From a virus: DNA of 24,662 nucleotides. This document shows positions 8,043 through 24,662 of this stretch, one piece after another. Within the stretch, counting starts at the first letter, position 1, and each line of letters opens with the position of its first letter. The translations under genes and the position numbers were made by a program. The stretch covers positions 1 through 24,662 of IMG/VR virus record IMGVR_UViG_3300021959_000369; one strand, given 5' to 3'. The notes under the pieces were generated by a model. The model was not told the origin of the DNA. It saw only the letters and a program-made list of their open reading frames with translations, and ran no database searches.

Positions 8043-9979
8043 TGGAAGACGATCTTCTATTTACTCCTGAAGAGCTCTCGACACTTAACGAAGAGCAGAA
8101 AAATTTTCTTAGACCTATTAGGATGCAAAATCTGAGTGCACCAGGCCAGGCAGAGCCGTCTGGTCCCGTTGAGAAACAAAAATTTAGGACTCTCGCGCAA
8201 GGGTTGAGTTTTGGTTTTTCTGATGAGATTGAGGCTGTTATACGATCAGCTATACCTGGCGGTCCCAACTATACCGAGCTAAGAGATCAACTAAGGCAAA
8301 AGGTTTCTGATTACCAGCAGGCATATCCTGGCGAAGCAATTACCATGGAGGTAATCGGTGGTCTGGCTACAGGTCTTGTTCCTTTCGCTGGTCAAGCAAG
8401 AGCCGCTAGTACCATGGGCAGATTAATCGGCACATCTGCTGCTGAAGGAGCTCTGTACGGTCTAGGGACAAGCGAAGCTGACTTGTTTGGAGAGGGCGCC
8501 GATCCACTGCAAGCTGGCTTGGATGTTGCGGTGGGTGGTGTAACTGGAGCAGGAACAACAACTGCCGCTACCACAGCGTTTAGAGCGATAGGTGGCGTTG
8601 GATCCAAGTTTGTTAATTATGTTAGAGAAAAGTTTGGAACACGATACAGCGATGATGTGCAAGCTTATATCGGCGGTCTGGCGTCACAGTCAGGAAAGTC
8701 TGTTGATGAGATAGTTGCAGACATCGCGGAAGGCAGGGCGTTCACTGACAATGCCTCCGTAAACGCAGCTTTGAAGCAGTTTATATTAGAAGGCGGAAAG
8801 CCAGCCCAGGAGCTTTTAGAGTTTGTGCAGAACAGGGCTCAAACCCTAAGAGGTCAGGCAAGAAGCGGTCTTCAAGAGTCACTTGCGCCAGGAACTGGTG
8901 ATAACGTGCTCGATGAATTCATGACTAGAACTGAAAGGCTCAGAGGTCAAGAAAGCAGTCAATACACACAGATATTTGCTAATCATCCGTCGGTTACAAG
9001 ACCTATTGCTAATCAGGTAGAGCGGTTGCTGCAAAGATACCCTACGGTTAGAAATGAATTAGGCTCTCTTTATCAAGAAAGAAACCTGGTTCCATTATTC
9101 AAAACTACAGATGACGGAGCGGTAGAACTCGCTAGGGCTCCCTCATTAGAGGATGCTGATAATATTTACAGATTGCTGCGTGACGAGGGTCAGCAACTGT
9201 CAATTAGCGGAAGAGGTACACGGTCTGGAGTGTACAAAACCGACGCAAACAACCTAAAAACCCTTTTGGACGATACTTATACAGATCTAAGAGACGCCAG
9301 AGCAAACTACTCCGCGTCATTCTCATCATCAGAGGCTTTCGATGAAGGACTTGCGTCTCTGAACAAAAATGTCGATATGACTGCTCGAACATTTAGAGGA
9401 ATGAATGCGGATCAGCAGGCATCTTTTAGGATTGGTGTTTTTGCTGCTTTAAGAGATAAATTGAGACGTACTCCGCAAAGCACAATTGCGAAGCTTGCAG
9501 AGGAAGATCAGCAGCTTGGAGATTTGTTGCGCTTAGTTGCTCCAACAGAGTCTATTGATGACCTGGCTAGAACTTTGGGAATAGCTGCCGAAGCCGGTAG
9601 AACTTCTGCATATCTGCCGCAAAGAGCCGGGTCTCAGACCTTGCCTCTGATGATGGCTAGAGATAAAGGTATACCTGTTACAGCGCAAGATTTAACCGGA
9701 GCTGCCTCTGGCGATCCGGCTGCCATGGCAAATATTGCAAACAAGACGGTCAGAGCTCTAACTCAAGCGACTCCTCTTTCTGAGCAAGGAAGGCAAGCGG
9801 TTGTTGATATACTGACATCTCAAGATCCAAACATATGGATAAAAGCCCTGACTGATAATTCTCAGTTTGATCAGTTATCTGCCTTGATAAATAGATACGC
9901 TGCAGCAGTTGCGCCAGGAGCTAGAACCGCCCTAACACAGCAATCAGCAAGTGGTATGCAAGGTCTTCTAGGAATGTAA
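8042..9979 (+). CDS. Large internal virion / DNA ejection protein
   Basis: 645 residues; the ATG shares a base with the previous stop, and GGAGGT lies at 8028-8033, a strong ribosome site. An acidic N-terminus (1-50) is followed by GLSFGFSDEIEAVIRSA (about 58-74), a motif often seen in phage injection proteins, then YTELRDQLRQKVSDYQQAYP. Residues about 100-180 are rich in Gly/Ala with amphipathic, membrane-active-looking helices (EVIGGLATGLVPFAGQARA). The remaining 450 residues are helical and charged. The arrangement matches ejection proteins that line a channel across the cell envelope at infection. No lytic transglycosylase or peptidase motif is found, unlike some family members. It lies directly before the portal gene. 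Confidence 0.65.
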   Translation: MEDDLLFTPEELSTLNEEQKNFLRPIRMQNLSAPGQAEPSGPVEKQKFRTLAQGLSFGFSDEIEAVIRSAIPGGPNYTELRDQLRQKVSDYQQAYPGEAITMEVIGGLATGLVPFAGQARAASTMGRLIGTSAAEGALYGLGTSEADLFGEGADPLQAGLDVAVGGVTGAGTTTAATTAFRAIGGVGSKFVNYVREKFGTRYSDDVQAYIGGLASQSGKSVDEIVADIAEGRAFTDNASVNAALKQFILEGGKPAQELLEFVQNRAQTLRGQARSGLQESLAPGTGDNVLDEFMTRTERLRGQESSQYTQIFANHPSVTRPIANQVERLLQRYPTVRNELGSLYQERNLVPLFKTTDDGAVELARAPSLEDADNIYRLLRDEGQQLSISGRGTRSGVYKTDANNLKTLLDDTYTDLRDARANYSASFSSSEAFDEGLASLNKNVDMTARTFRGMNADQQASFRIGVFAALRDKLRRTPQSTIAKLAEEDQQLGDLLRLVAPTESIDDLARTLGIAAEAGRTSAYLPQRAGSQTLPLMMARDKGIPVTAQDLTGAASGDPAAMANIANKTVRALTQATPLSEQGRQAVVDILTSQDPNIWIKALTDNSQFDQLSALINRYAAAVAPGARTALTQQSASGMQGLLGM

Positions 9980-16428: not shown

Positions 16429-17124
16429 ATGAAAATTAAACAAAGGCTAGACCCAGTGCTGCTAAAGATGGCATGCAGTTGGTCAATAAAGGCGTACAAC
16501 GCCGAAAACCGGGATGCCATCAAGATTGAAAACAAGTGGACCTCAATGACTGCATATGTGGTCAAAAGAAAATCTATTGATGTAATCGTGTTCAGAGGCA
16601 CTCAGCAGGCCCGTGATTGGATATTTAACGCATCCGCAATACCTGTACCCTACGCAGGCAGATTGGCCCATGGTGGTTTTGCCATGGCCCATAGGTCCAT
16701 TTGGAAAAAGATCCTGCCGCACATAGATTGGAAGAAGCGTACCCTAATCTGCGGGCATAGTATGGGCGGCGCTTTGTCAGAGGTCACGGCGGCGATACTG
16801 GAGCGAGCCGGGCATAAGAATGTGAACTTGGTGGCGTTTGGAAAGCCGAACGTATGGTTCAAGGGCAGCAAGCGGCGCATGATTCTGGACAACCAAATCT
16901 CAGTGGTCAACGGCAGCGACAGCGTTGCCAAGATTCCGCGGGCTCTATATGGCCCGTCAAAGTCGCAGACCATGCTCTACTTCAGTAACACAGGTTTTGA
17001 CTGCATAGATCCGTGCCGAGACACCAGGAGAGCGGACCGCGGCAACCTGAAGGACGGGATATCTGATCACTTTATGGATGGTTACAAGAAACGACTCGAT
17101 GCATACCTGGAGGCAAACCAATGA
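16429..17124 (+). CDS. Class 3 lipase (alpha/beta hydrolase)
   Basis: 231 residues. The strand VIVFRGTQ (53-60) carries the oxyanion-loop RGT typical of Lipase_3. The nucleophile elbow is ICGHSMGG with Ser111. The next landmarks are NLVAFGKPNVW (133-143) and VVNGSDSVAKIPR with Asp164, and the catalytic His is His214 in SDHFMDGY. The full Ser-Asp-His triad is present, so the enzyme is probably active on acyl esters such as glycerophospholipids. There is no signal peptide, so it is made in the cytoplasm. It lies inside the lysis cassette and shares four bases with the lipoprotein gene, which suggests it helps damage the membrane at lysis; that role is inference. An entry role as a virion enzyme cannot be excluded. 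Confidence 0.83.
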   Translation: MKIKQRLDPVLLKMACSWSIKAYNAENRDAIKIENKWTSMTAYVVKRKSIDVIVFRGTQQARDWIFNASAIPVPYAGRLAHGGFAMAHRSIWKKILPHIDWKKRTLICGHSMGGALSEVTAAILERAGHKNVNLVAFGKPNVWFKGSKRRMILDNQISVVNGSDSVAKIPRALYGPSKSQTMLYFSNTGFDCIDPCRDTRRADRGNLKDGISDHFMDGYKKRLDAYLEANQ

Positions 17125-18481: not shown

Positions 18482-18484
18482 TTT

Positions 18485-18506
18485 TTGGTGGGTAGGTTGG
18501 TGGGTA
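18485..18506 (+). repeat. G-rich tandem direct repeat TTGGTGGGTA x2
   Basis: Two exact 10-base copies (18485-18494 and 18497-18506) are separated by two bases, directly after the endolysin stop. The G runs GG-T-GGG-TA-GG-TT-GG-T-GGG could form a two-layer G-quadruplex. The end of the gene (18463-18475) can also pair with 18492-18502 in an 11-bp stem with a 2-base bulge and 16-base loop. There is no U-run after it, so it is not a classic terminator. It marks the end of the late block. Confidence 0.55.
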
Positions 18507-18599
18507 AATACATGCAATTACGCTAAGTTATTGTTTTTGCATAAGTAAAAAATCCTGCCGCGGTATCATGTTTTAACTACGTCGAACTACTTCTACCGC

Positions 18600-18628
18600 T
18601 TGCGTCACATTTGATGCTTTGCTACACT
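18600..18628 (+). promoter_or_regulatory. Candidate promoter of the recombination operon
   Basis: TTGCGT at 18600-18605 and TACACT at 18623-18628 stand 17 bases apart, with TG one base before the -10 (TGCTACACT), an extended -10. A short inverted repeat ACACTTGTGT (18624-18633) overlaps the -10 and may be an operator. Transcription would begin near 18635, and the leader reaches GTGGAG about 10 bases before the ATG at 18662. The match to consensus is moderate. Confidence 0.55.
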
Positions 18629-18661
18629 TGTGTTTCGTTTAACCAAGTGGAGCAATAAATT

Positions 18662-19267
18662 ATGCACGGCATAAAAACTCTGAGCGCCCAGATCTGGGAC
18701 GTTCTATCTAAAGTTGACTGCAGCGAAGCAGTTGAGAAGAAGGGTGAATTCAACTACCTGTCATGGGCAAAAGGCTGGAAGATGCTCATGCAGGCTGGGT
18801 TTACTGACGTTGACTACAATTTTGAGCTGACGCACAACCCTGACCAGACCGCACAGGTAAGGTGTACCTTCACTATTCACGTTGGTCATGATTCAGCGAC
18901 TCATCACGAGACACTTCCTGTTCTAACTTGGTCTAACAAGCCAATTGTCAATCCGAACTCAATGGACATAAACACTGCTCGCCAGAGGGTGCTTGTTAAA
19001 ACATTGGCCAGATTTGGATTGGGCATAGATGTCTATGTAGGAGAGGATCTGAATGCTTCTGCCTCCGGCAGCGATGCTGTTGGCAAGGTTGAGTATGTTG
19101 ATGCGGATTGGGTCAGCAACGTTAATAAATTTCTGAAGAGCAAAAAGATTGACGTTGAAGAGGTCAGCAAAATGCTGATGTCTGTCTACCAGATACCTAG
19201 CATTGAAAAGGTACCTGTGGCCCAGAAGGATGTAGTCGGAGACAGCATCCGGGAGCGTGGACAATGA
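18662..19267 (+). CDS. Single-strand annealing protein (DUF1071, Rad52/Sak3-like)
   Basis: 201 residues. The DUF1071 order is clear: FNYLSWAKGWKML (30-42), then LPVLTWSNKPIVNPNSMDIN (85-104) and the hallmark RVLVKTLARFGLGIDVYVGE (109-128). These correspond to the Rad52-like fold of phage Sak3-type annealing proteins. They pair complementary single strands exposed by an exonuclease during recombination-dependent replication and end repair. Its partner exonuclease is encoded next, with a 4-base overlap (ATGA). The C-terminal 60 residues are variable and helical. ATG has GTGGAG upstream at good spacing. The promoter candidate lies about 34 bases before the start. Confidence 0.8.
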   Translation: MHGIKTLSAQIWDVLSKVDCSEAVEKKGEFNYLSWAKGWKMLMQAGFTDVDYNFELTHNPDQTAQVRCTFTIHVGHDSATHHETLPVLTWSNKPIVNPNSMDINTARQRVLVKTLARFGLGIDVYVGEDLNASASGSDAVGKVEYVDADWVSNVNKFLKSKKIDVEEVSKMLMSVYQIPSIEKVPVAQKDVVGDSIRERGQ

Positions 19268-19878
19268 TAGCTGTTGACGCTGATCAGCGTTCAGACGAGT
19301 GGCATGCTGCTCGTCTGGGCATACCTACGGCTAGTAACTTCAAGAGAATTATTACTGGCACCGGCAAGGCTTCTACTCAGATTGACGATTACATGGACGA
19401 GCTCTTAACGGAGCGCCTTACTGGCAGGCGTGAAGAGATTTACGTCACCGAGGATATGCAGTACGGGATCGACAACGAGCCCAATGCTAGGGCGTGGTAT
19501 GAGTACGTCAGCGGTAATCCCGTTGAGGAGATTGGCTTGTGCCTGCACGACAGCATTAGAGCGGGCGCGTCTCCTGACGGCCTTGTAGACACAAAGGACG
19601 GCAAGGGTTGCGTCGAAATCAAGTGTCACCGCAAGCCAAAGAAAATAGTCAAGATGCACCGGGAGCAGAAGGTGCCTGTGGAGCACATACCGCAGATACA
19701 GGCGCAGCTTTGGGTGCTCGGTCCTGAATATAAATTTTGCGACTTTGTTGCATGGTCTCATGAGGTGAAACCATTCCGCATGCGTGTAGAGCGGGACGAT
19801 AAGTACATCGAGAAACTTGAGCAGCTTGTTGCTGATATGGTTGCGGATCTTGATACATGGGAGGAAAAGCTGTGCTGA
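19264..19878 (+). CDS. YqaJ / lambda-type 5'-3' exonuclease
   Basis: 204 residues with the YqaJ motifs in order: QRSDEWHAARLGIPTASNF (8-26), MQYGIDNEPNARAWYE (65-80, E72), AGASPDGLVD (100-109, D105), CVEIKCHRKPK (116-126, E118 and K120) and HIPQIQAQLWVLG (141-153). These residues give the PD-(D/E)xK metal site of lambda exonuclease relatives, which chew one strand from duplex ends to yield tails for annealing. It forms the expected two-gene pair with the annealing protein before it. Length is normal. Its stop overlaps the start of the next gene. Confidence 0.85.
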   Translation: MIAVDADQRSDEWHAARLGIPTASNFKRIITGTGKASTQIDDYMDELLTERLTGRREEIYVTEDMQYGIDNEPNARAWYEYVSGNPVEEIGLCLHDSIRAGASPDGLVDTKDGKGCVEIKCHRKPKKIVKMHREQKVPVEHIPQIQAQLWVLGPEYKFCDFVAWSHEVKPFRMRVERDDKYIEKLEQLVADMVADLDTWEEKLC

Positions 19879-20075
19879 CACTGTGTGAGCATGCGTTTAA
19901 AGAACGCTACGGAATGGAGCTCAAGAACGTTTCAGACGTAGCTAGAGATCTCTGGGTATCAGGCTGGAATGCTGGCCTGCAGCAGATGAAGAGCCAAGCA
20001 GATATACTGATTGGTGAAACTAACCGGCTCGAAGAGCCAAAGAAAGAGGAAAAGAAATATGACTTCTCAATATGA
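19872..20075 (+). CDS. Small hypothetical protein after exonuclease
   Basis: 67 residues with GTG 19872 chosen because GGGAGGA (19859-19865) lies six bases before it; an ATG at 19857 in the same frame is an alternative. The chain reads LTLCEHAFKERYGMELKNVS, then ARDLWVSGWNAGLQQM and a charged end (EEPKKEEKKYDFSI). The helix with WVSGWNAGL resembles small helper proteins that recur after phage exonucleases. No domain is recognised. The charged C-terminus might bind a partner protein. The next gene starts 17 bases before its stop. Confidence 0.55.
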   Translation: MLTLCEHAFKERYGMELKNVSDVARDLWVSGWNAGLQQMKSQADILIGETNRLEEPKKEEKKYDFSI

Positions 20076-20274
20076 CAATAAGAACAAGGGTGCTTTGTGG
20101 GTTAACCAGAACAAATCCGAAGACAAGCATCCGCATTTTACCGGCGAGATAGATGTCGAAGGCAAGGTGTACAGAATAGCTGGCTGGAAGAAGGACAATC
20201 CTTCAGGTAACCAGCCTGTAATGTCACTGCAGGTTTCAGAACCGCAAAAGAAAAATGACGGTATACCATTCTAA
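20059..20274 (+). CDS. Small OB-like protein with SSB-type C-terminal tip
   Basis: 71 residues; GAGGA (20045-20049) precedes ATG 20059 at good spacing, so this start is preferred to an upstream in-frame ATG at 20011. Residues 11-64 are beta-rich: GALWVNQNKS, then HFTGEIDVEGKVYRIAGWKK and VMSLQVSEPQ, which resembles a small OB or beta-barrel fold. The last residues are NDGIPF, strikingly like the DDDIPF tip by which bacterial SSB recruits repair enzymes. Between an annealing protein/exonuclease pair and NinB/NinG genes, a single-strand DNA-binding role is a reasonable inference, though the protein is smaller than usual SSBs and might only mimic the tip. Confidence 0.6.
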   Translation: MTSQYDNKNKGALWVNQNKSEDKHPHFTGEIDVEGKVYRIAGWKKDNPSGNQPVMSLQVSEPQKKNDGIPF

Positions 20275-20508: not shown

Positions 20509-20925
20509 ATGCCTCAAGGGCAATTCTGGATAGTGAATAGCGATGATGCTCTGAAGAAATTTCAGCAGCACATAGAGGAAGTTTACAAGAAGGATCGTTA
20601 CCTTACAGTAACCTGGGAGAGCGGCAAGAAGCGCAGTCTAAAGCAAAACTCTGCGCTGCATGTCTGGTGCTCTGCCCTGGCTGATACTCTGAACGAGAAG
20701 GGCTTGGACATGCGTAAGGTCATCAAGGCTGATGTGGATATTCCTTGGAATAAGCAGTCAGTCAAAGACTACATATTCAAGCCTGTTCTGGAGGCGATGA
20801 CCGGCGCCGATTCTAGTGCAGACGCGGAGAAGGTAGATTACATCAAGGTCTACGAGACGCTGAACAAGCACCTGGCTGAGAAGTTTGGTGTGCATGTTCC
20901 GTGGCCGGTCAAGAAAAATGAATAA
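20509..20925 (+). CDS. NinB-like recombination protein
   Basis: 138 residues with ATG 20509 preceded by GAGGAG (20497-20502); longer in-frame starts would run into the HTH gene and lack a ribosome site. Residues 40-51 read KKRSLKQNSALH, close to the RSLxQN block of NinB, the lambda protein (Orf) that helps single-strand DNA loading by recombinases. Residues 78-92 (DIPWNKQSVKDYIFK) and the C-terminal VYETLNKHLAEKFGVHVPWP follow. The context with NinG and the annealing pair is typical. The match is partial, so function is inferred from family likeness and operon. Confidence 0.62.
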   Translation: MPQGQFWIVNSDDALKKFQQHIEEVYKKDRYLTVTWESGKKRSLKQNSALHVWCSALADTLNEKGLDMRKVIKADVDIPWNKQSVKDYIFKPVLEAMTGADSSADAEKVDYIKVYETLNKHLAEKFGVHVPWPVKKNE

Positions 20926-21439
20926 GGTAGTGATTGAGATACCTGCTCTCTGGTGGCACATCGTTGATGAGCTGCCAGAGAAGCTATCTGAGCGATCAAT
21001 CAATTCATGGTCCAGCAAGGCTGGGATACTCGGAGAGCTCGCGGTTGTTCAATATTTCAACGCAGAGGGCATTGATTATGAGTATGTTGCCCAGGATAAC
21101 TTTTCCTGCGATCTGATCTGTAACGGCCGCAAGGTAGACGTTAAGACCACTGAGCGCCGCGGGTTTGCTAGTGACTTCAACAATGCTCTGCTCACTGATT
21201 ACCAAAAAGAGCAGGACTGCGACACCTACATTTTTACGAGCATTCCCAAAGACAAGGGACTTGTTGAGATAGTAGGCTATTGTGACAAGAAATGGTTCTG
21301 GTCAAACAACTACGCCAGAGACCTAGAGGCCGGTGAGAAGGTTGCTGTGAATGCGGTCAAGGATCCCTGCAGGATCTTGAAGTACGGTTACTTAGCTGAC
21401 ATATATCAGATAGGGAGTGTGCTGCGTGACTACCACTAG
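20918..21439 (+). CDS. PD-(D/E)xK nuclease-like protein
   Basis: 173 residues from ATG 20918, overlapping the NinB-like stop by 8 bases. Landmarks are E40 in GILGELAVVQYF, D65 in NFSCDLICNG, and D74/K76 in RKVDVKTTE, forming the E...D...(D/E)xK layout of restriction-like nucleases. A core strand (CDTYIFTSIP) and GLVEIVGYCDKKWFWSN follow. Phage enzymes of this kind act on DNA ends, branched DNA or restriction sites; nothing in the sequence defines the substrate. The neighbour NinG suggests a branch-resolving or repair role. It is not the YqaJ exonuclease, which is present as a separate gene. Confidence 0.7.
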   Translation: MNKVVIEIPALWWHIVDELPEKLSERSINSWSSKAGILGELAVVQYFNAEGIDYEYVAQDNFSCDLICNGRKVDVKTTERRGFASDFNNALLTDYQKEQDCDTYIFTSIPKDKGLVEIVGYCDKKWFWSNNYARDLEAGEKVAVNAVKDPCRILKYGYLADIYQIGSVLRDYH

Positions 21440-22004
21440 AAGATGCTCGATGTGCCGGAAGAAGGTAAACGCTGAGTGTGCGGTGTTTGCTGGGATCAAA
21501 GCGTTCTGCTGCTGGGAGCATTTATTTGAGTGGACCAAGACAGAATCTGCCAGAAAGCTTGCAGAGAAGTCTAGACGCAAAGAGATAACCGAGCAGCGCA
21601 AAAGGCTGTCTAGGCGCTCTGAGGTGCTCAAGAAGGCTCAGATGGCCTTTAACCTGTACATTCGGGTCCGAGATCAGAATAAGCCTTGTATCTGCTGCGC
21701 CAGGCCGCTAGAGGGTGATGCGATTGGCGGCAAGTATGACTGCGGGCACTACAGGTCTGTTGGCAGCTGCAACTCCCTGCGTTTCGACACCAGGAATGCC
21801 CACGGCCAGCTGAAACACTGCAATAACTATCTGGGCGGTAACGTCGTTGAATATCGCAAAGGGTTGATCAGAAGGTTTGGTCAGCAATTTGTTGAGGATC
21901 TTGAGAGCGATACGACAACGCGCAAGATGACAAAGGACTACCTGGAGCGCATAGCCAAGGTGTTTAACAAGAAAGCGCGGCTCTACCGTAGAAAATTTAG
22001 GTGA
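21426..22004 (+). CDS. ninG: NinG (Rap)-type recombination nuclease
   Basis: 192 residues with GTG 21426 chosen; GGGAG (21413-21417) lies 8 bases before it. An in-frame GTG at 21417 adds three residues and is less well placed. N-terminal Cys pairs (CSMC at 7-10) are followed by a basic helix (RKEITEQRKRLSRRSEVLKK). The NinG core is KPCICCARPLEGDAIGGKYD, then CGHYRSVGSCNSLRFDTRN and CNNYLGGNVVEYRKGLIRRF. It carries metal-binding Cys/His like HNH enzymes. In lambda, NinG (Rap) cuts Holliday junctions and displacement loops. It ends the recombination operon, with a hairpin 9 bases after its stop. Confidence 0.85.
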   Translation: MTTTRRCSMCRKKVNAECAVFAGIKAFCCWEHLFEWTKTESARKLAEKSRRKEITEQRKRLSRRSEVLKKAQMAFNLYIRVRDQNKPCICCARPLEGDAIGGKYDCGHYRSVGSCNSLRFDTRNAHGQLKHCNNYLGGNVVEYRKGLIRRFGQQFVEDLESDTTTRKMTKDYLERIAKVFNKKARLYRRKFR

Positions 22005-22012
22005 TAAAAAAA

Positions 22013-22035
22013 CCGCCTCGATACTGCTAAGGCGG
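22013..22035 (-). terminator. Hairpin reading as a terminator on the - strand
   Basis: CCGCCT (22013-22018) pairs with AGGCGG (22030-22035) across an 11-base loop. On the + strand the hairpin is preceded by seven A and not followed by T, so it is no standard terminator for ninG. On the - strand the same stem is followed by TTTTTTT, the classic intrinsic form, yet no - strand gene is seen nearby. It may block antisense transcription into ninG. Confidence 0.5.
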
Positions 22036-22064
22036 AAAGAATCTCAAGGGAAGGCTGGGCCGCT

Positions 22065-22262
22065 TTGATAGCGAGAAGCGGAAATGTCAAAGGTAGGACC
22101 AAGTGGGAGTGGAGAGACTTTGACACACCAGCCGACCAGGAGTATAACACACAACCCGGTGTGGTGAATCCTGACCGGAAAAAACTCAAGGATAATGCAG
22201 ACAGGTTGCTGAAAACCTGGATAGCAAAATGCCACGGGCGTGACGGGACCGGCCAAAGATAG
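22065..22262 (+). CDS. Doubtful small frame (65 codons, TTG start)
   Basis: The frame is open from 22008, but the first usable start is TTG 22065, with AGGGAAGG (22047-22054) about 10 bases upstream. The product reads KGRTKWEWRDFDTPADQEYN and then NPDRKKLKDNADRLLKTWIA. It is hydrophilic and lacks a recognised domain. The near-consensus promoter at 22120-22148 lies inside it, which argues that the region is regulatory. On the other hand, residues before the TTG also look protein-like (RISREGWAALIARSG). It could be a real small gene or a decayed one. Confidence 0.3.
   Translation: MIARSGNVKGRTKWEWRDFDTPADQEYNTQPGVVNPDRKKLKDNADRLLKTWIAKCHGRDGTGQR
22120..22148 (+). promoter_or_regulatory. Near-consensus sigma70 promoter upstream of helicase
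   Basis: TTGACA (22120-22125, six of six) and TATAAC (22143-22148, five of six) are separated by exactly 17 bases. Initiation is expected near 22155, giving a leader of about 275 bases for the helicase gene at 22431. This is the strongest promoter-like sequence I noticed in the window, and it implies that the helicase and the following small genes can be transcribed separately from the recombination operon. Confidence 0.7.
22148..22163 (+). promoter_or_regulatory. Inverted repeat at the promoter start site (operator candidate)
   Basis: CACAC (22148-22152) and GTGTG (22159-22163) are perfect complements with six bases between (AACCCG). The repeat begins at the last base of the -10 and covers the expected start site, where a repressor would block initiation. 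The HTH regulator of this window is one candidate ligand. A different inverted repeat, ACACTTGTGT, overlaps the promoter candidate near 18,624; the arms are similar, but the spacing differs (2 against 6). Confidence 0.45.
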
Positions 22263-22375
22263 CGAGATCTGAGGCACAAACCTGGTTAGCGGACACGATG
22301 GAGGCTCGACGCGGCTACCAATGGATGGTGAAGGCGTTCAGGCAAATTGGCATTTTTGGACTACGCAACTACTGA
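22229..22375 (+). pseudogene. Small frame interrupted by TGA at the fifth codon
   Basis: An ATG at 22229 reads four codons (MPRA), then TGA (22241-22243), and is then open to TGA 22373-22375. The 43 codons after the stop give a plausible helical product (RPKIARSEAQTWLADTMEAR, then WMVKAFRQIGIFGLRN). A change of CGA to TGA would explain the break. No strong ribosome site precedes the ATG; an internal ATG at 22298 would leave 25 codons. It may be a recently broken small gene, a chance frame, or a sequencing error. Since TGA ends many genes here, recoding is unlikely. Confidence 0.35.
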
Positions 22376-22430
22376 ATTTCACTGATGGTGTCCCTAACCG
22401 TCAAAAGACTAGTATTGCCGGGAGAAAAGT

Positions 22431-23906
22431 ATGGTCGAGCTCAGACCGCATCAGATCAAAGCTATTGAAATGATCCGCGACAGCATGAGGCGCGGCAACA
22501 AGCGAGTAGTGCTAGGAGCTGCCTGCAGCTTTGGCAAGACGCTAACCGCGGGCGCTATCGCTGAATCTGCAGTCAAGAAGGGCAAGCGGGTTCTGTTTGT
22601 CTGTGACCGGATCCAGCTAGTCAATCAGACTCTCAATGCTTTCGACAGTCAGTACCTCAGACCTGGCGTGATCCAGGGCGAGCACTGGCGCAATGACCCA
22701 GACGCATCCGTACAGATCGCAAGCGTACAGACACTGGCAAGGCGCCGGCATATGCCTAACGTCGATCTGGTGATCCAGGATGAGTGCCATGTTATGTACA
22801 AGACCATGCGGGACATCATGCAGCTCTGGGATCTGGTGAATTTCATAGGGCTCTCAGCCACGCCGATGAGCAAGGGCATGGCCGCGCCCGGCTTATGGCA
22901 AGACCTAGTGGTCCCAATCACTACCGCAGAGCTGCAGGAGCAGGGCTACCTGTGCCCGATTGAGGTCTACGGCGGCCGTCAGATTGATGTCTCGAAGGTG
23001 CGGTCAAAGGGTATTGGCACCGGAGGCAGTGACTATGACCCGGTGCAGCTCTCCGAGGCTGTCGAGCAGGATCAGGATCTTGTTGGCGATGTTGTGTCTA
23101 ACTGGCTGGCTCACTGCAAGGGTAGGCAGACAATCGCATTCTCTGCGTCTATCGCGGCGTCTAAGTCCCTGGTAGAGCTCTTCCTAAAGAATGGCATACC
23201 TGCAGCTCATATTGACGGCTATATGGACCCTAAGCTGCGTGAGGAGCTCATGCAGAAGCATGACAGCGGAGAGATCGTCATACTCAGCTGCAGCCAGCTG
23301 CTGGACACCGGGTACGACGCGCCACAGGTATCTGCCTGCATAGACCTCTATCCTACTAAGTCGATCATCCGGCATTGTCAGAAGATTGGACGCCTGGCCA
23401 GAATATGCGAGGGCAAGGAGAACGCAATCGTGCTGGACCATGCAGGCAATCACCTACGCCATGGCTTCACCGACATGATCGTCCCTAAGCGGCTTGATGA
23501 CGGCACTGGGCGCTTTGACGAGAAGAAGCAAGTCAAGAAGGAGAAGGAGCCCAAAGAGCCGCGGGAATGCCCGAGCTGCAAGAAGCAGTTTGTCGGTCTG
23601 CGCTGCAATGGTTGCGGCTACGAGATCGTGATCCGTCACGATATGCACGGAGATAAGAGCATGCTCAAGAAGCTGAACCGGGAAGACACCAGGGAGAGCA
23701 AGCAGGAGCTGTTTGCCGGGTTGCTGCATTACGCCAGGGCTCATGGATACAAGGAGGGCTATGCATCCTACGCCTATCGAGAGAAATATGGTGTCTGGCC
23801 GAACCAAATAAAACGCGGAATTAGGCCAAAACAAAGCCAAAAAGCCGACGATTGGGTAAAACACTTGAACATAAAGCGAGCAAAATCAAAGCGTTACGGC
23901 ACATAA
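22431..23906 (+). CDS. SF2 helicase with C-terminal zinc ribbon
   Basis: 491 residues, GGGAGA 5 bases before the ATG. Motifs run in order: the Q-like LRPHQIKAIEMI (4-15), motif I GAACSFGKTLTAG (29-41, K36), motif II DECH (117-120), motif III SATP (142-145), and motif VI QKIGRLARI (317-325). It is a DEAD/DEAH-type (UvsW/RecG-like in outline) translocase. Residues 380-395 carry CPSCKKQFVGLRCNGC, a four-Cys zinc ribbon, and a basic tail follows. Such phage enzymes unwind or remodel replication and recombination intermediates. It lacks a fused nuclease. With no DNA polymerase or primase seen here, it may work with host replication proteins. A UvsW-like annealing role is inference. Confidence 0.82.
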   Translation: MVELRPHQIKAIEMIRDSMRRGNKRVVLGAACSFGKTLTAGAIAESAVKKGKRVLFVCDRIQLVNQTLNAFDSQYLRPGVIQGEHWRNDPDASVQIASVQTLARRRHMPNVDLVIQDECHVMYKTMRDIMQLWDLVNFIGLSATPMSKGMAAPGLWQDLVVPITTAELQEQGYLCPIEVYGGRQIDVSKVRSKGIGTGGSDYDPVQLSEAVEQDQDLVGDVVSNWLAHCKGRQTIAFSASIAASKSLVELFLKNGIPAAHIDGYMDPKLREELMQKHDSGEIVILSCSQLLDTGYDAPQVSACIDLYPTKSIIRHCQKIGRLARICEGKENAIVLDHAGNHLRHGFTDMIVPKRLDDGTGRFDEKKQVKKEKEPKEPRECPSCKKQFVGLRCNGCGYEIVIRHDMHGDKSMLKKLNREDTRESKQELFAGLLHYARAHGYKEGYASYAYREKYGVWPNQIKRGIRPKQSQKADDWVKHLNIKRAKSKRYGT

Positions 23907-24010
23907 AAATATTTAATAAATTTGCATCAAAAAGGTTGCATAACGGGTCAGGGTTTGAGACGATACGTTTGTGGGGCGGCAACGGGCCAAACCAAAACGG
24001 AGAAAAACGA

Positions 24011-24232
24011 ATGAACTTACAAACAGCTAGACAAATTTTAGATCAACAACAAACAGAGCGTCACTCAATCGCTCGATCTGAGTCAAATAAGAATGATTGG
24101 CAAGTTTGGTGGGACGGCATAAAACTAGCTGATGGTCTGGCATCAAAAGAGTCGGCCAAAGACTGGGCAGCACAGATGGACATTGAATTCGCAAAGAATT
24201 TGATCATACCCGCCGAGCAACGGCGCTCATAA
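24011..24232 (+). CDS. Small unknown protein (accessory row, first)
   Basis: 73 residues from ATG 24011, with CGGAGAAAAACGA directly upstream as its ribosome site; a longer frame from 23852 is open but overlaps the helicase and has no ribosome site. The N-terminal helix is Gln-rich (TARQILDQQQTERHSIARSE); the centre is WQVWWDGIKLADGLASKES, and it ends in a helix (AKDWAAQMDIEFAKN). A WxVWWDG strand followed by a helix recalls small phage proteins of unknown role. The 104-base gap before it is AT-rich at its start and holds two copies of TTGCAT (23922-23927, 23936-23941). The gene has the same upstream block as the next small gene. Confidence 0.55.
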   Translation: MNLQTARQILDQQQTERHSIARSESNKNDWQVWWDGIKLADGLASKESAKDWAAQMDIEFAKNLIIPAEQRRS

Positions 24233-24240
24233 GCAAACCT

Positions 24241-24288
24241 ACAGCAAATAAAACCAGACCCGCTTAACTGCGGGTTTGGCAGTAGAAG
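24241..24288 (+). repeat. Intergenic hairpin element, copy 1
   Basis: The element is ACAGCAAAT, a variable base, then a 38-base core (24251-24288) that recurs exactly at 24562-24599. Inside is a strong hairpin: CCAGACCCGC (24254-24263), loop TTAACT, GCGGGTTTGG (24270-24279), ten pairs with one G-U. A three-T run lies inside the stem, and no T run follows, so its terminator strength is uncertain. It sits 8 bases after one small gene and upstream of the next. Confidence 0.75.
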
Positions 24289-24319
24289 TACCAACAAATC
24301 AACAACCGGAGAAAAACGA

Positions 24320-24544
24320 ATGACTAATATCGCAAAAATGAATCTCGGAGACATTGATAGATTGCTGGCAACAACTGATCTCACAGGTACTGAAGTATTT
24401 AATGCCCTGCGAGATCATTTTCGCGCAAACCCAAACAGAAACAGATTAAAAAAATGGGAGCGTTTCTTTCGGCGAAATTCAACATTGTTCGGAATGGTCA
24501 CTGATGACGATATTGATCTAATTATGGAAGTCAAACGGTCATAA
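24320..24544 (+). CDS. Small unknown protein (accessory row, second)
   Basis: 74 residues from ATG 24320, which has CCGGAGAAAAACGA upstream, the same leader as the gene before. The protein is helical and basic in its middle: LGDIDRLLATTDLTGTEVFN, then FRANPNRNRLKKWERFFRRN, then TDDDIDLIMEVKRS. The middle could bind nucleic acid or a partner. There is no similarity to its neighbour beyond size. It is flanked on both sides by the repeated hairpin element. Small genes with their own leaders at this kind of position are often early host-takeover or anti-defence genes; here that is only a guess from layout. Confidence 0.58.
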   Translation: MTNIAKMNLGDIDRLLATTDLTGTEVFNALRDHFRANPNRNRLKKWERFFRRNSTLFGMVTDDDIDLIMEVKRS

Positions 24545-24550
24545 AAACCG

Positions 24551-24599
24551 ACAGCAAATCGAAACCAGACCCGCTTAACTGCGGGTTTGGCAGTAGAAG
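24551..24599 (+). repeat. Intergenic hairpin element, copy 2
   Basis: This repeats copy 1: ACAGCAAAT, then two variable bases, then the same 38-base core (24562-24599) with an identical 10-pair hairpin (CCAGACCCGC and GCGGGTTTGG around TTAACT). The exact match of a noncoding core in two places about 310 bases apart shows recent copying or strong selection. It stands between the second small gene and a third that runs off the window. Confidence 0.75.
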
Positions 24600-24628
24600 C
24601 AACAGCAAATTAACTTAGGAGATAGCGA

Positions 24629-24662
24629 ATGAGCGCAAACATCAATTGTCACCGGGTAGTAG
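24629..24662 (+). CDS. Start of a third small accessory gene, truncated at window end
   Basis: ATG 24629 follows TAGGAGATAGCGA, a good ribosome site, and reads MSANINCHRVV before the window ends. The upstream hairpin element and leader style match the two preceding small genes, so it is probably the next member of the row. Length and product cannot be told. Confidence 0.5.
   Translation, partial: MSANINCHRVV

Follow-up and report, generated by a model that had tools for sequence, protein, structure and literature searches.

A row of gene cassettes joined by hairpin linkers

The right end of the viral contig analysed here, from a marine phage, carries a row of small genes which is best explained as a series of interchangeable cassettes, probably reshuffled by homologous recombination at the hairpin linkers between their cistrons. 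The window, that is the whole stretch of DNA under study, is an entire IMG/VR virus record and a linear fragment of 24,662 bp. It encodes a podovirus-type portal with Octadecabacter Antarctic DB virus 2 as its best match (49%), and isolated phages gave no blastn match to the region. To the right of the helicase gene lie two ORFs of 73 and 74 aa, unrelated to each other, and the beginning of a third, each with its own ribosome leader as the original prediction had described, ORFs 1 and 2 having the leader CGGAGAAAAACGAATGA in common and the third being preceded by TTAGGAGATAGCGAATGA. The predicted exact 38-nt repeat with a 10-pair hairpin is present between the ORFs at 24251-24288 and 24562-24599, and its chance expectation in the window is ~6e-15. 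Each copy closes its stem over a UUAACU loop at -19.7 kcal/mol (z ~-4.3 to -5.7), and no shuffled sequence folded as well. The compactness claimed for the rest of the window holds for most of it and fails at gaps of 426 nt (22005-22430) and 180 nt (18482-18661). The row is short, with at most three hairpins in any contig searched. Its features are as follows, contigs used for comparison being denoted by L numbers:

22431..23906, + strand: DNA helicase (phrog_16, E 2e-84; PF04851), the backbone gene left of the row
23936..23964, + strand: row promoter region (TTGCAT, 17 nt, GACGAT), from the aligned leaders of 13 arrays
23965..24010, + strand: first cassette leader, ribosome site CGGAG at 23998-24002; kept in L007, L026, L036, L040 and L076
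24011..24232, + strand: cassette gene 1, an ORF of 73 aa; identical in L005/L028, diverged homologue in L001
24251..24288, + strand: hairpin linker copy 1, 38-nt core; stem 24254-24279, loop TTAACT
24289..24319, + strand: right part of linker 1; ribosome site CGGAG at 24307-24311
24320..24544, + strand: cassette gene 2, 74 aa; homologues 81% (L026) and 84% (L027) identical
24562..24599, + strand: hairpin linker copy 2, 38-nt core; stem 24565-24590
24600..24628, + strand: right part of linker 2; ribosome site AGGAG
24629..24662, + strand: start of gene 3, ~70 aa in relatives and the backbone gene right of the row; complete in L002, L001 and L007

Gain, loss and exchange of genes between linkers

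Comparison with relatives, the check proposed in the original prediction, revealed gene gain and loss between the hairpin copies. The closest case is L005, a 35.8-kb contig whose identity to the window is 99.9% along 7,873 bp that take in the helicase and gene 1. Here gene 1 is kept and exactly gene 2 plus one repeat is missing, while the one linker that remains is flanked on its left as copy 1 is and on its right as copy 2 is. Recombination of one copy with the other would give exactly this state, or else it is that of the ancestor before the cassette was inserted, the comparison being compatible with either polarity. A single hairpin also lies between a gene 1 relative and gene 3 in L001, and the one-cassette state thus exists in a more distant relative too.

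Other relatives differ by replacement at the same locus. L007 and L018 are 95% identical to the window (L007 over 5.9 kb) and carry two entirely different genes at both positions. The homology of L007 to the window ends at 24016, at the gene 1 start codon, is back at 24253-24327 (hairpin, leader and start codon), is lost again in gene 2 and returns at 24537. The pairs L036/L040 and L037/L041 show the same pattern, with a break at the first start codon and homology back at the hairpin. In L026/L035 the left break comes earlier, in the promoter region, indicating that leader and cassette were exchanged together. The place of gene 2 varies as well: it takes second place in the row of the window and first place in L026, and in L027 gene 4 comes after it. 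Finally, L076 lacks the hairpin yet has a cassette at the same promoter and leader position, which shows that a gene can be held there without it. All of these exchanges are seen in contigs from metagenomes, and the ends of several contigs lie close to the row; the recombination behind the exchanges is deduced from such contigs rather than directly observed.

Since only 62 nt of the window contig follow the second repeat and its end falls in a variable region, the second cassette might be an artefact of assembly or strain merging and exist in no real genome. We regard this as very unlikely, because gene 2 followed by a hairpin of the same family occurs in the independent contigs L026 and L027, and comparable two-cassette rows were assembled in L007, L018 and L035. 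Gene 2 is moreover under purifying selection (dN/dS ~0.13-0.22) and is therefore a real gene with a function. The independent contig L069 begins in gene 3 at the very point (GGGTAGTAG) at which the window contig ends, a coincidence that would be expected if assemblies break at population variation. Contig ends clustered near the row (window, L006, L001, L069) fit such variation too; they were excluded as evidence because the search markers bias them.

The two halves of a linker follow different genes

The hairpin is the joint at which cassettes were connected, since the sequence on its left tracks the upstream gene and that on its right the downstream gene. Among 16 linkers, mean similarity left of the hairpin was 0.83 where the upstream gene was the same, as opposed to 0.32 otherwise (p 0.0002), and right of the hairpin it was 0.68 with the same downstream gene as opposed to 0.45 (p 0.0006), in permutation tests that treat linkers as independent, which they are not fully, and that leave relatedness uncorrected. 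Linkers with only the upstream gene in common did not exceed background similarity in their right halves (0.42), and those with only the downstream gene in common came close to background in their left halves (0.42). Linker 2 of the window illustrates the behaviour: its right part has the same sequence before gene 3 in L005 and L007, despite differing upstream genes, and a close one in L001.

Cassettes are also found in distant backbones. A gene designated A is ~89% identical between L007 and L040 (dS 0.19), and the helicases of these contigs are 98% and 46% identical, respectively, to that of the window. Similarly, the hairpin and leader of linker 1 (24251-24323) are 94.5% identical in L031, whose helicase has 42% aa identity to the window's. 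On these alignments, cassettes travel further than backbones.

An alternative reading of such joints is that the hairpins are ordinary intercistronic 3'-end elements, such as weak terminators or mRNA stabilisers, that illegitimate recombination occurs anywhere with only gene-edge products surviving, and that the likeness of the linkers reflects their function and not guidance of exchange. Clean gene-edge breakpoints can indeed result from selection against broken genes, which alone predicts them; the stem-loop without its tail is a U-tract terminator in Salmonella and Klebsiella phages; and unrelated phages show constraint on stem pairing, loop and tail. Nevertheless, we consider this explanation unlikely, given that homology returns inside the linker every time, that the end points of the L005 deletion are exactly those of a repeat-to-repeat exchange, that linkers are far more alike than backbones, and that each half of a linker goes with a different gene.

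Recombination genes and a model for cassette exchange

The window encodes a lambda-like recombination set, upstream of the row, consisting of:

18662..19267, + strand: Sak single-strand annealing protein (PF06378, E 5.3e-25; phrog_8492), candidate recombinase for the swaps
19264..19878, + strand: YqaJ/RecE-like recombination exonuclease (PF09588, E 1.5e-24; phrog_149)
20056..20274, + strand: single-strand DNA binding protein, SSB (phrog_7364, E 1e-14)
20509..20925, + strand: NinB/Orf recombination mediator (phrog_7283, E 3e-9; weak PF05772)
21417..22004, + strand: NinG/Rap junction endonuclease (PF05766, E 5e-35; phrog_171)

No tyrosine recombinase/integrase (PF00589) was found in 11 records of the group, most of which are fragments, in a search that recovered its positive controls in 14/14 control genomes. 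The 38 nt of linker identity are more than the minimum needed for pairing, which is given as 23-27 bp with Red-beta and 31-34 bp with RecA (PMC3945230). From the recombination set, the integrase result and the length of identity we infer homologous exchange or single-strand annealing. The proposed mechanism places the cassette row between two backbone parts, the helicase on the left and gene 3 or gene 4 on the right, with each cassette unit made up of a ribosome site, a small ORF and the hairpin linker after it. Near-identical linkers, across cassettes and distant phages, would let any cassette join any neighbour, and homologous recombination or annealing at these linkers would add, delete or replace whole genes and leave coding sequence uncut. 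The likeliest enzymes would be the phage's own Sak, YqaJ, NinB and NinG. The original prediction had listed recombination seeds among several possible roles of the hairpins, and this role is well supported: genes are gained or lost at strain level and swapped at the same locus, homology breaks at the start codon and the hairpin, linker halves re-assort, and the phage encodes a recombination module of its own.

Promoter-poor single-gene cassettes in a row, with a hairpin after each and precise gain and loss, are likewise what an integron-like site-specific system would produce, in which the hairpin would be the folded attachment site of an integrase. We give this possibility hardly any weight, in view of the PF00589 result and of a folded sequence in which no attC-like split arms are present.

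A hairpin family in phages and prophage-like contigs

The linker sequence can be written CCCGC-TTAAYT-GCGGG-TTTGG-YRGTRGAAR, and the hairpin family is characterized by the stem, a UUAAYU loop and a conserved RGTRNAA tail. Pattern scans across 2.9 million viral contigs returned 18 and 23 stretches with the motif, which correspond to ~22 distinct contigs beyond the window, and a similar scan of 84,980 species genomes returned one contig, from a Glaciecola MAG. With a covariance model, this MAG yielded one more copy, on another contig; the 295 further Alteromonadales genomes in the sample had none. Of the two Glaciecola contigs, one encodes a virus-type helicase and an HNH protein, and phage-like content is present on its counterpart; both are presumably prophage or phage DNA. 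Further hairpin copies thus occur beyond the window, and relatives with both cassette genes but without the hairpins were not encountered in the comparison.

The stem pair next to CCGC is C-G in 23/29 copies, G-C in 6/29 and mismatched in none (model alignment), the second pattern scan having left the 5' partner of that pair free. An additional compensatory change, from G-C to A-U, is present in L059, a second and diverged hairpin copy in the record of an unrelated phage, L045. Because stem changes are always compensated, the pairing itself is maintained. Loop UUAAYU and tail RGTRNAA are kept also in phages without detected similarity elsewhere (L044-L049, L058), and most copies have their stem 33-49 nt upstream of the following start codon. 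Rfam contained no match even at E up to 5, and none at gathering in 11 sources. Hairpins of the family were found singly, without a row, in unrelated phages and in the Glaciecola prophage-like contigs, so recombination is not the sole reason for the existence of the hairpin.

These properties bear on the idea that hairpin and tail are primarily an RNA signal, be it bound by a protein or RNA polymerase, processed, or forming a pseudoknot between loop AYU and tail RGU, and that the recombination node is a by-product of conservation. The compensatory stem changes, the retention of loop and tail in unrelated phages, the spacing to the next start codon and the position in a 5' leader behind a divergent neighbour in L044 and L058 all favour it. 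Against it, neither an Rfam family nor a partner protein was found, and loop and tail combinations all pair bar one exception, so that covariation gives no contrast. We put this explanation at somewhat below an even chance and see it as complementary to, not exclusive of, exchange by recombination at the linkers.

A small mobile repeat, REP- or MITE-like and inserted twice, could also place the same sequence in several unrelated phages. It is extremely improbable here: contigs searched hold at most three copies, all intergenic, the flanks follow the neighbouring genes and show no target duplications, and the element is nearly absent from bacterial genomes. Two further candidates were rejected. 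A short peptide TTG-GCR-GTR encoded in the tail is contradicted by L036b, L036c, L058 and L059, which lack TTG or have a shifted frame, and a CRISPR-like repeat by the ~300 nt spacing with ORFs between the copies. In the first linker of L034/L043 (L043 11271-11313) the 5' half of the hairpin is lost and CTGCGGGTTTGGCAGTAGAAG is kept, hinting that the 3' half and the tail matter on their own.

Transcription of the row and a possible role of the hairpin as RNA

In 13 arrays a promoter region precedes the first cassette, and in relatives this region matches sigma-70 promoters clearly (TTGACT-16-TAGAAT in L036 and L031). The window's own copy is weak and was not called by the consensus scan. The linkers of the window, L007, L031 and L036 contained no sigma-70-like coding-strand promoter in a scan blind to phage-specific promoters. 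With a promoter before the first cassette and none in the linkers, the row is probably one operon, and the single promoter region would probably drive the whole of it.

The suggestion that the hairpins end or pause transcription is weakened by our analysis. Of the features of an intrinsic terminator, the G+C-rich hairpin is present and a U-tract directly after the stem is absent, and a strand-aware terminator scan was silent on the coding strand. In both window copies, T makes up 3/8 of the bases after GCGG and 1/8 of those after the 10-pair stem. The two Glaciecola contigs, L044 and L058, also count against termination, as the same element there lies in a 5' leader behind a divergent gene. 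Both contigs have GGTTGGCACTTAAATCATAACACAGG in common directly upstream of the hairpin; this is probably a common promoter, which would put the hairpin at the very start of the transcript. Classical termination by the hairpin is therefore not supported and partial termination is possible; a transcript 3' end at GCGGGTTT would favour termination. As to RNA function, we favour mRNA-end stabilisation, insulation or protein binding between cistrons. The protection of RNA or binding of a regulator put forward originally thus stays among the possible roles, given the paired stem and the conserved loop and tail. More tentatively, the hairpin with its UUAAYU loop and RGTRNAA tail might serve marine phages and prophages as an undescribed regulatory RNA element that a protein or RNA polymerase recognises, and which in one phage group doubles as a dedicated linker and so creates a plug-in slot for promoterless cassettes.

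Cassette proteins and other elements

The cassette proteins tested had no match of note in Pfam, PHROGs or PADLOC, the models of the latter covering defence and not anti-defence. These searches neither support nor refute the early takeover or anti-defence roles suggested originally. The AlphaFold model of gene 2 is all-helical (mean pLDDT 76) and had no fold match with E below 1 among PDB and viral models; that of gene 1 (pLDDT 66, pTM 0.26) was too poor for use. Elsewhere in the window, 16429-17124 encodes a class 3 lipase domain protein (PF01764, E 7e-15) adjoining the phage lysis genes.

We also observed a second conserved structured non-coding RNA of ~130-170 nt, GCCAGCNGGCGGTG..GGG..CCC.GAAAACACC..GGCCCACGATACGGGCC, located at:

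L001:2115-2275, L005:9800-9995, L029:3215-3345 (- strand), L031:8462-8605, L033:228-350, L037:3622-3760 and L041:4735-4880 (- strand)

Compensatory changes occur in 9/28 of its predicted pairs, and no Rfam match was obtained in the sources scanned. In several phages it immediately precedes the cassette promoter, and in the relatives of the window it lies close to the terminase. The 426 nt at 22005-22430, between NinG and the helicase, contain no convincing gene; a counterpart of their sequence (GGTTAGCGGACACGATGGAGGCTCGACGCGG...GTGAAGGCGTTC) can be recognised in L034 ahead of the row (~9540-9700), suggesting that this may be another structured RNA. Finally, the cassette promoter and a small zinc-ribbon-like gene have a long conserved non-coding stretch ahead of them in L035 (4900-5340, reverse complement), L026, L036, L040 and L076, and this stretch had no Rfam match in L035 and L040.

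Significance and relation to known systems

The row offers a sequence-level view of accessory-gene swapping in phages: gain or loss between repeats is visible at strain level, the joints are defined, and the genes for the likely enzymes lie nearby. Exchange of whole cassettes at linkers shows how such phages could trade accessory genes unbroken. The linker further provides a handle for retrieving small cassette-borne phage genes, a natural place to seek host-takeover or counter-defence functions, and the hairpin itself, a distinct element absent from Rfam, is a possible new structured RNA family.

Several described systems resemble the row in part. The U-tract terminator of Salmonella and Klebsiella phages (AAACCCGCTTAACTGCGGGTTTT) has the same inner stem and loop, but 5-6 T in the first eight bases, compared with 3 T here (1 after the full stem) and the conserved GGYRGTRGAAR tail; these phage matches, confined to the stem-loop with its T-tract, were judged to be a different, ordinary terminator. 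Integron cassettes likewise comprise single genes with a hairpin after each and precise gain and loss. Here, however, no integrase was found in 11 records, exchange would be homology-based, and a continuous 10-pair stem with a 6-nt loop stands in place of split attC arms.

T4-type phages reportedly carry PeSLs (promoter early stem-loops), according to Arbiol 2010 and Comeau 2014. In lambdoid phages and mycobacteriophages, modules adjoin at short conserved boundary sequences, with repeat deletion in Island3/Brujita and 29-bp repeats in LRRHood (PMC3029335). The likeness lies in the joining of modules by homologous recombination at short conserved sequences and in gene gain and loss between short repeats, and the difference in a boundary that is here a structured hairpin, reused several times per row and common to distant phages. 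Relaxed homologous recombination by phage Rad52-like recombinases has been described in work with lambda Red and phi80 in E. coli (PMC3945230, PMC2327257); the window encodes a predicted Sak of the Rad52-like group as a candidate enzyme, and its repeat is longer than the minimal pairing length.

The nearest described system is the PeSL of T4-type phages (cited in PMC4503421), reportedly a conserved stem-loop motif in the gaps between small uncharacterized genes, by which modules are shuffled. In both cases a stem-loop lies between neighbouring small genes and gene content between the motifs varies among relatives. The present row belongs to a small podovirus-like phage with its own Sak and YqaJ, and the likeness is one of description. 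Membership among the PeSLs fails on the promoter within the motif, as no promoter was found in the linkers and one promoter region precedes the whole row, which suggests that a promoter in each linker, as in the T4 PeSLs, is not required for such shuffling.
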